The position numbers were made by a program, and so were the translations under genes. A stretch of 35,189 bases of DNA, from the NCBI GenBank assembly GCA_003225455.1, contig QIAB01000023.1, positions 1,875 through 37,063 on the forward strand, read 5' to 3'. Of the stretch, positions 2 through 6,216 are shown one piece after another (position 1 is the stretch's first letter; each line of letters opens with the position of its first letter). The DNA is from Acidobacteriota bacterium (GTDB lineage: Bacteria > Acidobacteriota > Terriglobia > Terriglobales > Acidobacteriaceae). The notes beneath the pieces were generated by a model. It ran no database searches, was not told the origin of the DNA, and was given only the letters and a program-made list of their open reading frames with translations.

Positions 2-622
2 CAAATTAGTCCGAACGATGCCGAAGCGCACAACTTGTATGCTTGGTATCTCGTATCCGTTAAGCGCTTCGATGATGGAATTACAGAATCTCAGCTTGCC
101 CGCAAGCTTGATCCACTCTCTTCGGAGACAAATTTCCTGCTCGGCCAAAACTTTTATCTGGCGCGCCGCTACGACCTTGCCATGAACCAGCTCCGCACCA
201 CGATTGCGCTGGACGCCAGTCTTTGGGTTGCGCACGATGAACTGGGCTGGCTGTACGAGGAACAGCACGACTTTCCGCGCGCCATCGCGGAATTCGAGAA
301 AGCTCGCAAGCTCGAGCCCAACGTTGCGGAACCGCTCGCATCGCTGGGTCGTGCCTTTGCGCTCTCAGGTCAAGCGGAGAAAGCTCGCCAAGTCTTAACT
401 CAACTGGAGAACATGCGTGACAAAATTCACGTTACGCCCTACAACGTGGCTTCGATCTACGCCGCGCTCGGCGATAAGGAGGAGGCCCTCGCTCAGTTGC
501 AAAAGGCCTATGAGGAGCGCTCTTTCTACCTCACGTGGCTTGCTGTCGATCCACAATTAGACAGCTTGCGCTCCGATCCGCGATTCCAGGATTTGCTCCG
601 CCGGCTTGGCCTCCCTCACTAG
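2..622 (+). CDS. TPR-repeat protein, C-terminal part (5' end outside window)
   Basis: The reading frame is open from the left edge, so the start lies outside the window; the first visible residues read QISPNDAEAHNLYAWYLVSV. The visible ~206 residues are tandem tetratricopeptide helices, with TPR-like units around ARRYDLAMNQLRTTIALD, HDFPRAIAEFEKARKLEP and GDKEEALAQLQKAYEERS. The end, with LTWLAVDPQLDSLRSDPRF, is the usual tail of large acidobacterial proteins in which a Ser/Thr kinase or winged-helix DNA-binding domain precedes a TPR array. That N-terminal domain cannot be seen, so whether it is a kinase or a regulator is open. TPRs mediate protein-protein contacts. The gene ends 13 bases before the convergent histidine decarboxylase gene. 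Confidence 0.8.
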   Translation, partial: QISPNDAEAHNLYAWYLVSVKRFDDGITESQLARKLDPLSSETNFLLGQNFYLARRYDLAMNQLRTTIALDASLWVAHDELGWLYEEQHDFPRAIAEFEKARKLEPNVAEPLASLGRAFALSGQAEKARQVLTQLENMRDKIHVTPYNVASIYAALGDKEEALAQLQKAYEERSFYLTWLAVDPQLDSLRSDPRFQDLLRRLGLPH

Positions 623-635
623 TTCATCCTCACAA

Positions 636-1568
636 TTACGAGGCGGCGCGGTGTTCGGCCGTCTCTTCGTCAGTCCCGGCCACCAATGGAGGCAGTTTCA
701 CTGCTTTCTCCCACTGGGAGATTGTCATGTCAATGATCGAAGAAGCAGGCTGGTTTGCCGGAACCGCATTTTTCGCCAACACTACGTAAGGAGCGCACGT
801 GAGCGAGCAGCCGACGTGGTTCGCGGACGCAAACTGGTACTTATAGCCACAGAATATTTTGCTGTACACCACGCCTTGATCCACTCCACACATCACCATG
901 CTCTTCGTCACGTTATGCTGAGTTTTTTCGAGGTACTTAATGACTTCCGCTTCCGGAGTGTTTTGGTTGCCGTAGGAGTTGCAATCTTCAATGAAGAGAT
1001 TGGCGGCAGTCTCGCGGTCATCGGCGATGGCCAGGGCAATCGCGGCCCAAACCCACGTCGGGCCGTTGGCCGTCGTGTTCTTGTTTGCACAAATAACGTG
1101 AGCGCCAGGCATGGGCGGAAAGCGCCTCTGTTTTTCAGTCCCAAATAGCCTCATCGCACAATCCAGCAGCGGCTTCACCGGAAATACTGGAATTCGCTTC
1201 CCGGCTTTCGGCTCGTCCTGATAGTACATGGGCTTCAGGCTGCCGTTGGCGATCTGGTCAGCAACGGCGAGGTGGTATCCCCAAACTGCGCCATTCACTC
1301 CACAAAACGAAGACGCCGTGAGCATATTGATCTGCCCAATGTATGCGTCGTTTTTCTCGCAGCGATCGTAGGAAACAATGCCTTCCGTTCCGGGATCCAG
1401 ACCAGCCGTGCTTACTACGCCGGTCGAAAGTTTCAGGGTTGAGATGTAGCCATAGCCGCTTGCTCCGGGATTCGAATAGCCCATGCAATAGGGATCGAAC
1501 GGGCCTACCGCGCCATTGACGACTTCGGGCAGAGGAAGGACGGGATCCTTAAGCTTAATTTCTGTCAT
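636..1568 (-). CDS. hdcA: Pyruvoyl-dependent histidine decarboxylase proenzyme
   Basis: The enzyme decarboxylates L-histidine to histamine with a covalently bound pyruvoyl group instead of PLP. The 310-residue length equals that of the Lactobacillus 30a enzyme as I recall it. The signature GIVSYDRCEKNDAYIGQINM followed by TASSFCGVNGAVWGY is nearly superimposable on that protein. Autocleavage would fall between Ser86 and Ser87, giving a beta chain and a pyruvoyl-capped alpha chain. Tyr67-Asp68 match the substrate-site Tyr62-Asp63, and Phe192 and Glu194 in LFIED match Phe195 and the catalytic Glu197. The ATG has a strong Shine-Dalgarno (GAGAGGAG about 6 bases upstream). There is no antiporter (HdcP) or histidyl-tRNA synthetase neighbour as in lactic acid bacteria, so a role in acid stress or amine signalling is unproven. 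The family call is firm; substrate identity is inferred. Confidence 0.88.
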   Translation of the reverse strand: MTEIKLKDPVLPLPEVVNGAVGPFDPYCMGYSNPGASGYGYISTLKLSTGVVSTAGLDPGTEGIVSYDRCEKNDAYIGQINMLTASSFCGVNGAVWGYHLAVADQIANGSLKPMYYQDEPKAGKRIPVFPVKPLLDCAMRLFGTEKQRRFPPMPGAHVICANKNTTANGPTWVWAAIALAIADDRETAANLFIEDCNSYGNQNTPEAEVIKYLEKTQHNVTKSMVMCGVDQGVVYSKIFCGYKYQFASANHVGCSLTCAPYVVLAKNAVPANQPASSIIDMTISQWEKAVKLPPLVAGTDEETAEHRAAS

Positions 1569-1755
1569 GATTGACTCCTCTCTTGATGAGTAATTCGATT
1601 CGAAATGTTGGAGAGACCTAGGTACCGATGGGACCGCAACTCAAATCAGGCTTGCCGCGGAAGCGAGCGACATAGTACCACGGGCTCGGAAGAAGAGATA
1701 GAACTTACAACTTCTCTGAGCGGGCGGCGAAAATCAGAGAACTTGATGAGTAAGA

Positions 1756-2589
1756 TCAAACCAGAACTTGGAGCAGCGCTCGATTGCGGGTCGACCGCCT
1801 GAAGGACCGCAGGAAAGCTTCAGCGAACTGGGCACGGCTATGCTTGTCTGGAATGGGAGCCGAAACACGACTGGGATATTCGTCGTAAGTACGCCCATCT
1901 AGTTCTCTACCCGTCTTGGCCTTTCGCACTCCGCCCCATTGTTTGAAAAAGAATGGGACACCGCAGCTCCGGCATTGTTCACGGATTGACAGAACCCATT
2001 CTTTTTTCATCGGGCGAGCGCGGGGCCCGCTTTCGCCTCCAACAATCACCCAGTTGATGCCCGAGAAGTCTATTTCCCCGAGATCTTCTAGAAGCGGCTC
2101 GATTGATAAAAAACGTACTTTTGCGGGCGACTGCTGCAAATGCCCCACTCTCGGCAGACCATACCTGCGGTTCTCCACACTCACTCCCCACCAGATGTTT
2201 TCCCGATCCGCAGCAAACTGCAGCTTTCCATTCAACAGGTCGCGCAACCGCTCCGATCTTTTTGTGAGCACCTGATATGTATGCCAATCCGCAATCGTCA
2301 TCACCCGCGAGACAGCTTCTACGTATTCGTCCGGCACCCCTGCGTGAAACAAATCACTCATCGAATTCACAAAGACGAGCTTAGGCGAGCGCCATAGAAA
2401 AGGTTCGTTGAGCTTTTCTGGAACCAAACGCAAATCGAAGCCTTGTTCGTAGGGATGGCCCTTCACCCCGCGAAACCGCTCCGCGAATGTCTCCGCATAG
2501 CAATGCTTGCAGCCTGGGCTGATCTTCGTGCAGCCGCGGACAGGATTCCAAGAAGCGTCGGTCCACTCGATTTGGGAGTGCTCACTCAT
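1756..2589 (-). CDS. Three-Cys-motif protein, phage Gp37/Gp68 family (DUF5131)
   Basis: The 277-residue protein opens with IEWTDASWNPVRGC and carries the three-cysteine motif C20-x6-C27-x2-C30 (GCTKISPGCKHCYAE). This is the hallmark of the DUF5131 (Gp37/Gp68) family and resembles the iron-sulfur site of radical SAM enzymes. Further conserved blocks are LVFVNSMSDLFH, YQVLTKRSERL, IWWGVSVEN, RFLSIEPLLEDL, WVIVGGESGPRARPM and FFFKQWGG. The length is normal for the family and the product looks intact. Biochemical function is unknown; the radical SAM-like reading is inference. It is divergent from the tcmP-like gene across 262 bases of non-coding DNA, and that pairing is a recurrent neighbourhood for both families. 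The Shine-Dalgarno is weak and close (AAAGG, 2 bases from ATG). No other phage gene is nearby, despite the phage-derived family name. Confidence 0.85.
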   Translation of the reverse strand: MSEHSQIEWTDASWNPVRGCTKISPGCKHCYAETFAERFRGVKGHPYEQGFDLRLVPEKLNEPFLWRSPKLVFVNSMSDLFHAGVPDEYVEAVSRVMTIADWHTYQVLTKRSERLRDLLNGKLQFAADRENIWWGVSVENRRYGLPRVGHLQQSPAKVRFLSIEPLLEDLGEIDFSGINWVIVGGESGPRARPMKKEWVLSIREQCRSCGVPFFFKQWGGVRKAKTGRELDGRTYDEYPSRVSAPIPDKHSRAQFAEAFLRSFRRSTRNRALLQVLV

Positions 2590-2851: not shown

Positions 2852-3802
2852 GTGACTTCTCAGGACGAATTCGGTGGTGCGTGGACGCAGCAGAAACTTG
2901 GAGCGCTGGGCAAGTATTTGCAGGCATACACAACCATTTTCAAACGAAATCCCCGAGCTCAGTTTTATTCCATCAGCTACGTTGATGCGTTCGCTGGTAC
3001 TGGGACCCTCCAAAGGCCGGAACTTGGCAGATTGGCCGACCTCATTCCGGAATTCGAGCCTCCGTTCGACGAATATGTATTTATCGAGAAGAGCGCTGCA
3101 AAGTGCAGGGAACTACGGGCGATTGCGGCCGGCCAGCCACCAAGAAACATAAAAAATTTGAACGAGGATGCGAACAGCGCAATTCTGAAATGGTGTAAGA
3201 GCTTTGATGCCGGGCGCCAGCGCGCTGTGGTATTCTTAGACCCCTTTGGCGCGTCTGTGAAGTGGGAGGTGATTGCTGCGCTGGGTCGGACTCACGCAGT
3301 GGATTTGTGGGTGCTATTTCCATACTCCGCGATAAACAGAATGCTCGTACGTGACCGCAAGCCACCTGAACCATGGGCCCGGCGACTTACCGCAGTCTTT
3401 GGGACACGAGAATGGGAGAAGGCCTTCTACTCTACGAGCGCATTTCCATCTCTGCTCGATTCGACGCAGCGGGTTGAACTGATACACAAGTCCGCTGATT
3501 ACCCCGACATCACTGACTTCTTCATAGCACGATTGAAAAATGAATTTAAGGCGGTGAGTAAGCCGTTGCCACTCTACAACTCAAACGGCTCTCTATTATT
3601 TATGTTTTTTTTCGCTGCCGGGAATAAGCGAAGCGCTAAAACGGGCCTAACAATTGCGAACAGCATTATAGGCGGTTGCCCTTCGCGGCTTCGCGTCCCT
3701 CGATTTTGTGCCTTTCTGAGGGAAACAGTTCACAGCGGTATGTTCCCATGCTTCTTCGCCGGGTTCTTATCCCGTTTCGTGCCCAGCATTTCCAGTGCTT
3801 GA
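2852..3802 (+). CDS. tcmP: Three-Cys-motif partner protein TcmP (methyltransferase-like)
   Basis: The 316-residue product matches the three-Cys-motif partner family: [19 protein letters not shown] near the start and [15 protein letters not shown] at residues 43-57. What can be seen resembles a class I SAM-dependent methyltransferase core: DAFAGTG (45-51, motif I), an acidic FIEK at 78-80 (motif II), NEDA (104-107) and [13 protein letters not shown] (127-138, motif IV-like DPF). Translation starts at GTG, with GGAGG about 12 bases upstream. Family homology seems to stop near [18 protein letters not shown]. The last ~40 residues look non-native and lie antisense to the end of the carboxyltransferase gene, overlapping it by 73 bases, so the original stop may have been lost. 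The catalytic role is not known; methylation of a modified nucleic acid or peptide with its divergent partner is only a hypothesis. Confidence 0.82.
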
Positions 3803-5280
3803 ATTAGCTTCTTGCGAGTCTCGCGCGGCTGGATCACGGCATCCACAAATCCGCGCTCGGCGGCTACATAAGGATTTGCAAAGCGCTCGCGGAATTCTTC
3901 GATCTTTTTTTGGCGGACCGCGTCGCGATTTTCTGCATTCTCGAGTTCACGTTTATAAACAATGTCCACTGCGCTTTCCGGTCCCATGACGGCAATCTCG
4001 GCAGTTGGCCAGGCATAGTTCACATCCGTGCGAATATGTTTGGACGCCATCACGCAATAGGCTCCGCCATATGCCTTGCGTGTGATCACCGTAACTTTGG
4101 GCACGGTCGCCTCGGCAAACGCGTAGAGCAGTTTCGCGCCGTGTTTAATGATCCCTCCGTACTCCTGGTTTGTCCCGGGTAAAAATCCTGGCACATCTTC
4201 GAACGTCACCAGCGGAATATTGAAACAATCGCAGAAACGCACAAAGCGCGCGCCTTTGAGCGATGCATTAATGTCCAACGTGCCGGCTAGAAACGCAGGC
4301 TGATTGGCCACGATGCCTACGGGCCTGCCGTTCAGGCGGGCAAATCCAACAACAATATTCTTCGCGAAATGCTCTTGCACTTCGAAGAAGTAGCCATCGT
4401 CGACTACGGCATTGATGACGTCTTTCATGTCGTAGGGAAGATTCGATTGGTCGGGCACAATCGTATCCAGCCTTTGGTCGGCGCGATCAATCGGATCGTT
4501 ACAAACTTTTGTTGGCGCATCATCCAAATTGTTCGAGGGAACAAAACTCAGCAGTTCGCGGACCAGAGATAGACACTCCGCGTCATCCTGAGCCATGAAG
4601 TGTGCAACTCCGGAGGTCTCATTGTGCGCCTGCGCCCCGCCTAACTGATCTTTGGTCACTTCTTCATGGGTCACAGCCTTGATCACATCCGGTCCGGTGA
4701 TGAACATGTACGAAGTCTTGTTCACCATCACAATGAAATCCGTAATCGCCGGCGAATACACCGCGCCTCCCGCGCACGGACCCATGATCGCGGAAATCTG
4801 CGGAATCACTCCGCTGTACAGCGTGTTCCGCAAAAAAATATCCGCGTAACCGGCGAGCGACATCACTCCTTCCTGAATGCGCGCGCCGCCGGAGTCATTC
4901 AGTCCTATGAGCGGCGCGCCCATTTTTGCCGCCAGGTCCATGATCTTCACAATCTTCGCCGCATTGGCCTCGGAAAGCGATCCACCAAACACGGTGAAGT
5001 CCTGAGCGAAGACGAACACCAGGCGTCCTTCGATCCGTCCGTAGCCGGTGATGAATCCGTCTCCGTAATATTTCTGCTCCTCCATGCCAAAATCATGCGA
5101 ACGGTGTGTGACCAGCTTATCCGTCTCCTCGAACGTGCCCTCATCGAGCAGAAATTCGACTCGTTCGCGCGCGCTCATTTTGCTTTCTTTGTGCTGCCGC
5201 TCGCGACGCTGCGCTCCGCCACCCTCTTCGGCCAGGCCGTCGCGCTTTTTTAGCTCTTGAAGTTTCTGTTCGAGATTCAT
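3730..5280 (-). CDS. Acyl-CoA carboxylase carboxyltransferase (beta) subunit
   Basis: The 516-residue protein is the carboxyltransferase of a biotin-dependent acyl-CoA carboxylase (propionyl-/acetyl-/methylcrotonyl-CoA type), transferring CO2 from carboxybiotin to acyl-CoA. It is a full-length tandem crotonase-fold protein: [18 protein letters not shown] at the start, the N-half acyl-CoA site ([26 protein letters not shown]), and the C-half biotin site ([35 protein letters not shown]). The ATG at 5280 is preferred over an upstream start because [13 protein letters not shown] is the typical N-terminus. A TATAAT lies only 9 bases upstream, so the leader may be extremely short. PccB-type specificity is likely but not provable from sequence. 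Its biotin carboxylase and carrier partners may be those at 22.5-24.5 kb. Confidence 0.92.
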
Positions 5281-5289
5281 GGTGGGGAG

Positions 5290-5295
5290 ATTATA
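5290..5295 (-). promoter_or_regulatory. Possible -10 element of the carboxyltransferase gene
   Basis: TATAAT on the minus strand sits 9 bases before the ATG at 5280. No good -35 is visible at the right distance. If used, the transcript would have a leader of only 2-3 bases. Confidence 0.3.
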
Positions 5296-5323
5296 GGTGA
5301 GGTATGGCGGTGATTGATGGAGA

Positions 5324-5382
5324 ACGGGCGTCTCGCCCGTCATCTTTTTTATGCGCCGGCACGGCACGGGCGAGAACGCCCG
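5324..5382. repeat. Inverted pair of GC-rich hairpin repeats
   Basis: Two copies of one short palindromic motif lie in opposite orientation between the carboxyltransferase gene and the secreted-protein gene. The first hairpin (5324-5340) has a 7-bp stem, ACGGGCG/CGCCCGT, with loop TCT. The second (5367-5382) has a 6-bp stem, CGGGCG/CGCCCG, with loop AGAA. The reverse complement of copy one matches copy two almost throughout (ACGGGCGAGA, CGCCCG). A T6 tract follows copy one on the plus strand, but no plus-strand gene ends there. The pattern resembles REP/BIME-type interspersed elements. Confidence 0.6.
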
Positions 5383-5396
5383 CGCCTGGATCGGTC

Positions 5397-5981
5397 TCAC
5401 TCCATCGTGGATCCCAGCGGCTGGTACTTATACTTTTTACCGTCCCAAAAGATCGCGGAAACCGTGCCTTCGCCCTCACGGGCCTCTTCCGCATAAATCG
5501 CCATCACGGTTTTCTTGCGCACAGTCAGTTTCTTCACGGCAAGCTGCTTGAAGGGAAGATTGATAACGATAAATTTTGCTTTCGGCTCGGCCGCGCGCCA
5601 GCCATCAGCGCCCACGCCATGGATAATCAGCAAGGCCAGCCCACGCCGCTGCGGATCTTCAGAGGCGAACTTCGTCGTAACCTTGGGATCGCCATATCCG
5701 AAGAACGCATCGTAGGGATCGATTACTTTGTAATTGTCCTCCGCTTCATCCATCAGCGGATTCGCACAACGCGCCACAATCACCACGTCCTCCACGCCGT
5801 CACCGTTCAAATCGGCCGTCAGCGGCTGTGGACCAGGCTCAAGGCTGCAAGTCGACCCAAACTTTTTTTGCACGAAGTCATTGTCCACGGCTTGCGATGC
5901 AGGCTTTACGGCTGGCTGCGCGAAGGCGGTTGATAAAGAATAAGACGCGAGGAAAAGAAGGATGCAGATACGAAGGAACAT
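5397..5981 (-). CDS. Secreted protein of unknown function with Ca-binding-like loop
   Basis: The 194-residue protein begins [20 protein letters not shown] followed by AQPAVK, a clear Sec signal peptide with likely cleavage after AFA. The mature part contains [18 protein letters not shown] (about residues 53-70), a DxNxDGxxD loop as found in FG-GAP/EF-hand-like calcium sites, and a paired Cys (46 and 72) that could form a disulfide. The rest is predicted beta-rich with no enzyme motif I recognise. The stop lies 116 bases upstream of the carboxyltransferase start, with the hairpin-repeat pair between them, so co-transcription is uncertain. It appears intact. The family is not recognised beyond a periplasmic or secreted VCBS/FG-GAP-like fold. 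Confidence 0.75.
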
Positions 5982-6062: not shown

Positions 6063-6146
6063 GTCGGCTGAAAGCCGACTCTGATTTTCCACTTACGCTT
6101 TCCCGGCACTCACGTGCCGGGCTTTCTTATGCCGCCGCTTCGCGGC
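6063..6146. repeat. Cluster of three small GC-rich hairpins (interspersed repeat)
   Basis: Three perfect hairpins lie within 84 bases of non-coding DNA: GTCGGCT/AGCCGAC with loop GAA (6063-6079), CCCGGCAC/GTGCCGGG with loop TCAC (6102-6121), and GCCGC/GCGGC with loop TTC (6134-6146). CTTTCTT follows the second stem, making it terminator-like on the plus strand, but both flanking genes run leftward. The arrangement is more like a mobile REP-type repeat than a regulatory element. Confidence 0.6.
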
Positions 6147-6216
6147 TGATGCCCCTCTTGTCCCAACGCTCAGCATTGCGGCAGAGTTTTCGTAACGGCC
6201 TCCATCTGCCCGGCGG

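Follow-up and report, generated by a model that had tools for sequence, protein, structure and literature searches.

What is a gene resembling the pyruvoyl-type histidine decarboxylase (HDC) of lactic acid bacteria doing on an acidobacterial contig, and how did it come to be there? The gene lies in a 35,189-nucleotide stretch of contig QIAB01000023.1 (assembly GCA_003225455.1), which is referred to here as the window (Table 1). The reading that we prefer, and to which we give a probability of roughly three in four, is that it encodes a functional HDC that was gained laterally from the non-Bacillota branch of the family and that has a role in intracellular pH control or histamine supply.

Table 1. 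Features of the window, with positions counted from its first nucleotide.
Feature	Position	Strand	Basis or remark
Ser/Thr-kinase-TPR gene (end), convergent with HDC	2..622	plus	
PF02329 pyruvoyl-type HDC homologue, proenzyme of 310 aa	636..1568	minus	ORF, profile, PDB chain alignment
Phe192-Ile-Glu194-Asp195 codons (F-x-E-D; Glu197, Asp198 in Lactobacillus 30a)	984..995	minus	alignment
Ser86-Ser87 codons, predicted self-cleavage site	1308..1313	minus	alignment with 1HQ6/1PYA chains
Tyr67-Asp68 codons, substrate-binding pair (Tyr62-Asp63 in Lactobacillus 30a)	1365..1370	minus	alignment; roles from PMC8465708
Ribosome-binding site AGAGGAG of HDC	1575..1581	minus	read directly; 6 nt before ATG
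DUF5131 gene, upstream neighbour of HDC	1756..2589	minus	
mmdA-like carboxyltransferase gene	3730..5400	minus	82-90% identical in same-family relatives; anchors locus in host lineage
Acido-Lenti-1 RNA	6102..6147	plus	58.9 bits vs 37-bit threshold

The HDC homologue and its active site

The open reading frame, which starts with ATG and has 310 codons, encodes a full-length homologue of pyruvoyl-type HDC and is the only HDC copy in its genome. Chance is excluded as an explanation of the family match: the Pfam profile PF02329 scores 276.7 bits against a curated cut-off of 25, aligning residues 14-291 with positions 6-290 of the 294 in the profile, and a PDB sequence search finds the crystal-structure chains of the Lactobacillus 30a enzyme at 3e-28 and 3e-13. 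The NCBI equivalog TIGR00541 gives 262.9 bits, which is under its cut-off of 346.65; since this cut-off is missed by every tested non-Bacillota homologue, TIGR00541 is fitted to the Bacillota members of the family. The AlphaFold prediction, whose confidence is moderate (mean pLDDT 68.9), has chain B of 1PYA as its top structural match (target-normalised TM 0.82, E 7e-15), followed by pyruvoyl-dependent arginine decarboxylase.

The first-pass annotation of this DNA had stated that the Ser-Ser cleavage pair, the Tyr-Asp pair and the F-x-E-D motif are all retained. Alignment with the characterised enzymes confirms this for S86-S87 (Ser81-Ser82 of the Lactobacillus 30a enzyme), Y67-D68 and F192-I-E194-D195. 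Glu197 is the catalytic acid of the Lactobacillus enzyme, and E194 is its counterpart. Further residues that the annotation had not listed are also kept, namely the lid residue I64 (equivalent to Ile59) and D58/D195, which correspond to the pH-switch pair Asp53/Asp198; K163 is likewise kept in the alignment of homologues. All the catalytic residues are retained and are invariant across the clade of the window HDC. The roles of Ser81/82, Ile59, Tyr62/Asp63 and the Asp53/Asp198 pair are those described for the Lactobacillus enzyme (PMC8465708). The substrate-site residues examined are all classical, which favours histidine as the substrate, and the protein is likely to function as a histidine decarboxylase.

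The earlier expectation that the proenzyme processes itself is supported, with the cleavage pair and the site residues retained. The proenzyme would cut itself between Ser86 and Ser87 into a predicted beta chain of residues 1-86 and an alpha chain that begins at position 87 (from the 1HQ6/1PYA alignment), with Ser87 becoming the pyruvoyl group that heads the latter. The pyruvoyl group would form a Schiff base with L-histidine, and loss of CO2 would release histamine with the consumption of one proton. By analogy with the Lactobacillus 30a enzyme, Asp58 and Asp195 probably raise activity at low pH. The literature searched yielded no biochemical evidence for this branch of the family, and we infer the cleavage, substrate, pH response and physiological role of the window HDC.

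Host contig and origin of the gene

The contig is acidobacterial in character, as indicated by an RNA family and by the character of its genes. Acido-Lenti-1 is named for Acidobacteria and Lentisphaerae, and for cdaA, glmM and mmdA of the contig, same-family genomes contain copies of 60-90% identity; glmM-ybbR-cdaA and mmdA are conserved. The call of a probable acidobacterium, which had been made from the letters alone, agrees with both lines of evidence.

HDC is flanked by the kinase-TPR gene on one side and by DUF5131, a TcmP-like gene and mmdA on the other. In two relatives (G005 and G006), the order after mmdA is a gene in the place of TcmP, a 71-73% identical DUF5131 gene and then other genes, none of them a decarboxylase. 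This pattern fits a lineage-specific insertion of a single gene beside DUF5131. Rearrangement around the glmM-cdaA block also took place. In the stretches around this block from eight relatives, the first six genes of the window were not found beside it; some of these stretches stop soon after glmM. Between positions 1756 and 3802 of the window, DUF5131 is conserved near mmdA in relatives, and the adjoining gene of TcmP type has another sequence and another orientation there, which gives the impression of an exchange.

Two functional links to neighbours were considered. An operon link between HDC and mmdA, an idea that came from pccB/pccA adjoining HDC in two alphaproteobacterial metagenome-assembled genomes (MAGs), was rejected, since relatives without HDC conserve mmdA as well. 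The signalling genes that surround the cyanobacterial HDC raised the possibility of a link with the kinase-TPR gene, which was set aside because this gene and the window HDC are convergent.

Within the same family, 2 of 150 genomes contain PF02329; the count is 3 of 399 for the class and 2 of 396 for the phylum (own genome counted in each case), and in the cyanobacterial phylum it is 1 of 292. The closest sequence to the window HDC comes from a Leptolyngbyaceae MAG (67% identity), followed by Bacteroidota, Parasutterella and alphaproteobacteria at 57-61%; Streptoalloteichus (46%) and Bacillota (31-37%) are more distant. When the three core same-phylum sequences (window, G029 and G213) are constrained to one clade, the cost is 68.5 log-likelihood units and the tree is rejected (p-AU 1.5e-8). 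Pairing the window sequence with G213 gives p 0.0013, and pairing it with G029, whose place in the tree is less sure owing to an assembly gap that splits its HDC and to a long branch, gives p 0.0005. The test does not reject a clade of the window sequence and the cyanobacterial one (p 0.29). It should be noted that the deep branching order is weakly supported and that losses could add to the patchiness.

The window HDC was probably acquired from unrelated bacteria, and the comparisons of sequences and loci support such a transfer well. The first-pass annotation had proposed it and had named a phylogeny of PF02329 proteins as a check; that phylogeny scatters the acidobacterial copies, and the genome counts, the rejected single clade and the presence of mmdA with DUF5131 but no HDC in relatives bear the proposal out. 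The source would be the non-Bacillota branch and the event, most simply, the placing of a single gene beside DUF5131. There is no compositional sign of transfer, as GC and third-position GC of HDC are the same as in its neighbours. No tRNA or repeats mark an insertion site at the locus, and scans for sigma-70 promoters and terminators gave nothing clearly over chance. The only match in the phage collection is a Streptococcus satellite phage, and IMG/VR holds no relative.

Antiporters, role and alternative readings

The observation that no antiporter stands next door holds, the neighbours being kinase-TPR, DUF5131, TcmP and mmdA. Histamine-secretion clusters have been defined by an antiporter less than three genes away (PMC8465708), and none lies that close to the window HDC. 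The genome itself comprises 4.99 Mb in 195 contigs and is 95% complete, with an estimated contamination of 4.5%. None of its 16 AA_permease_2 matches exceeds the TIGR00905 cut-off (best 138.4 vs 409.05 bits), a search that covers a 95%-complete draft and one antiporter type; a gadC-like type, as in G213, would miss TIGR00905 too. Compared directly with HDC-linked antiporters, the proteins of the genome reach at most 31% identity across long stretches, with no close match. HdcB is a maturation protein found in some Bacillota clusters (PMC8465708); its profile PF17528 has zero matches in the genome, in a search run without a working positive control.

Antiporter-linked HDC genes are found in Bacteroides and Parabacteroides, and the G213 gene row, read from translations, consists of a PLP-type basic amino acid decarboxylase, HDC and an APC-type antiporter, which matches the clusters described in PMC8465708. 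Bacteroides nordii, a cyanobacterium and alphaproteobacteria carry HDC as a solitary gene, and the genomes of B. nordii and the Leptolyngbyaceae cyanobacterium likewise have no antiporter over the TIGR00905 cut-off. The solitary gene had been regarded as unusual, a view that this comparison does not support. Without a dedicated antiporter, the likeliest role of the enzyme would be intracellular pH control or histamine supply, with histamine leaving through a general transporter or by leakage. A different role for histamine is possible. A tentative and rather unlikely extension is that the window HDC is a member of a cysteine-rich, non-Bacillota branch whose genes have moved repeatedly on their own, with no antiporter, and in which histamine acts inside the cell, for instance in signalling or in modification, in place of acid resistance coupled to an antiporter.

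Three explanations compete with a laterally acquired HDC. In the first, the pyruvoyl enzyme has the same fold but decarboxylates some other amino acid and supplies a building block to another pathway. The lack of an antiporter of the usual type would agree with this, as would the divergent PF02329 proteins that have altered site residues and lie beside biosynthetic-looking genes (an amidinotransferase in G910/G1128, deoxyhypusine synthases in G029). We consider it unlikely, because the window protein keeps every substrate-site residue examined and groups with the antiporter-linked Bacteroides enzymes and not with the altered proteins.

The other two concern origin. That HDC is an ancient acidobacterial gene which most lineages have lost and a few have retained, with no transfer, is distinctly improbable given the scattered copies and the rejected clade, the different neighbourhood in which each acidobacterial copy sits, and the relatives that have mmdA and DUF5131 together without HDC; in its favour, several Acidobacteriota-like genomes carry PF02329 and the composition of HDC matches the host. 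The same match in composition, together with the Acido-Lenti-1 RNA and the internal position of HDC on a contig of 38.9 kb that carries host-like cdaA, glmM, mmdA and DUF5131, makes foreign sequence in an acidobacterial bin a very remote explanation, despite the estimated contamination. A functional HDC gained by transfer remains our preferred reading.

Divergent relatives and known systems

The divergent relatives that lie beside amidinotransferase or deoxyhypusine synthase genes may be more novel than the window HDC itself. In two genomes of the same class (G910, L094:5469-7614; G1128, L095:567-2830), a divergent PF02329 gene immediately follows an L-arginine:glycine amidinotransferase-like gene, which is related to 1JDW, SxtG and HsvA and is ~80% identical between the two. 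The PF02329 proteins have Phe for Y67 and Leu for R69 and keep the cleavage serines and the Glu, and the pair looks like a pathway of two genes that acts on another substrate. The diverged HDC of G029 is split between two contigs (L019:2-2589 and L020:12443-14962), in the order deoxyhypusine synthase, alpha/beta hydrolase, HDC, second deoxyhypusine synthase and cupin/JmjC-like protein. On a Salipiger plasmid (L023:4680-6855), a protein with a weak transglutaminase match (TGL, 38 bits), to which PDB sequences give no real support, is encoded 19 bp upstream of HDC. In PF02329 proteins of Rhizobium plasmids (L025, L026:5956-6948), Gly replaces Tyr67, Arg replaces Glu71 and the cleavage site reads Thr-Ser, changes that make their annotation as histidine decarboxylases doubtful.

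The known enzymes had been described as those of lactic acid bacteria and clostridia, which is too narrow: a 2021 survey that required an antiporter nearby found antiporter-linked HDC homologues in six phyla, Acidobacteriota not among them (PMC8465708). The present case is a modest extension of that pattern, in which a known, patchy enzyme family gains a lone, probably laterally acquired member in a phylum outside the six. Since antiporter-free copies recur in several phyla, surveys that require an adjoining antiporter miss a share of possible bacterial histamine producers. The window HDC and its lone relatives can serve as simple, testable cases in which histamine may be used independently of the secretion system.

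The classical HdcA of Lactobacillus 30a, Tetragenococcus and L. reuteri (PF02329; PDB 1PYA, 1HQ6) has in common with the window HDC full-length homology, the cleavage site, the substrate pair, the catalytic Glu and the pH-switch pair; the window HDC is about 33-35% identical to the enzymes of Tetragenococcus and L. reuteri. The classical operon includes an antiporter, HdcB and hisS, none of which adjoins the window HDC. The window HDC also has extra cysteines (C28, C70, C89, C254 and C258); within the non-Bacillota branch, those at 28, 254 and 258 are present in nearly all members and those at 70 and 89 in most. The HDC of Leptolyngbyaceae cyanobacterium RU_5_1, the nearest sequence, is lone like the window HDC, but its gene is packed tightly in a row with those for SpoIIE-type phosphatases and an NMT1-like binding protein. 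This row (L001:2-8980) is of a signalling type: 12 bp separate HDC from a preceding AAA-GAF-SpoIIE protein and 3 bp from the NMT1-like protein that comes next, which is followed by a SpoIIE phosphatase. The Bacteroides HDC found with aaxB and an antiporter (B. stercorirosoris, PMC8465708) is 57-60% identical to the window HDC and has the same cysteine pattern and active-site residues; it is linked to an antiporter and in some cases to PvlArgDC, whereas the window HDC is linked to neither.
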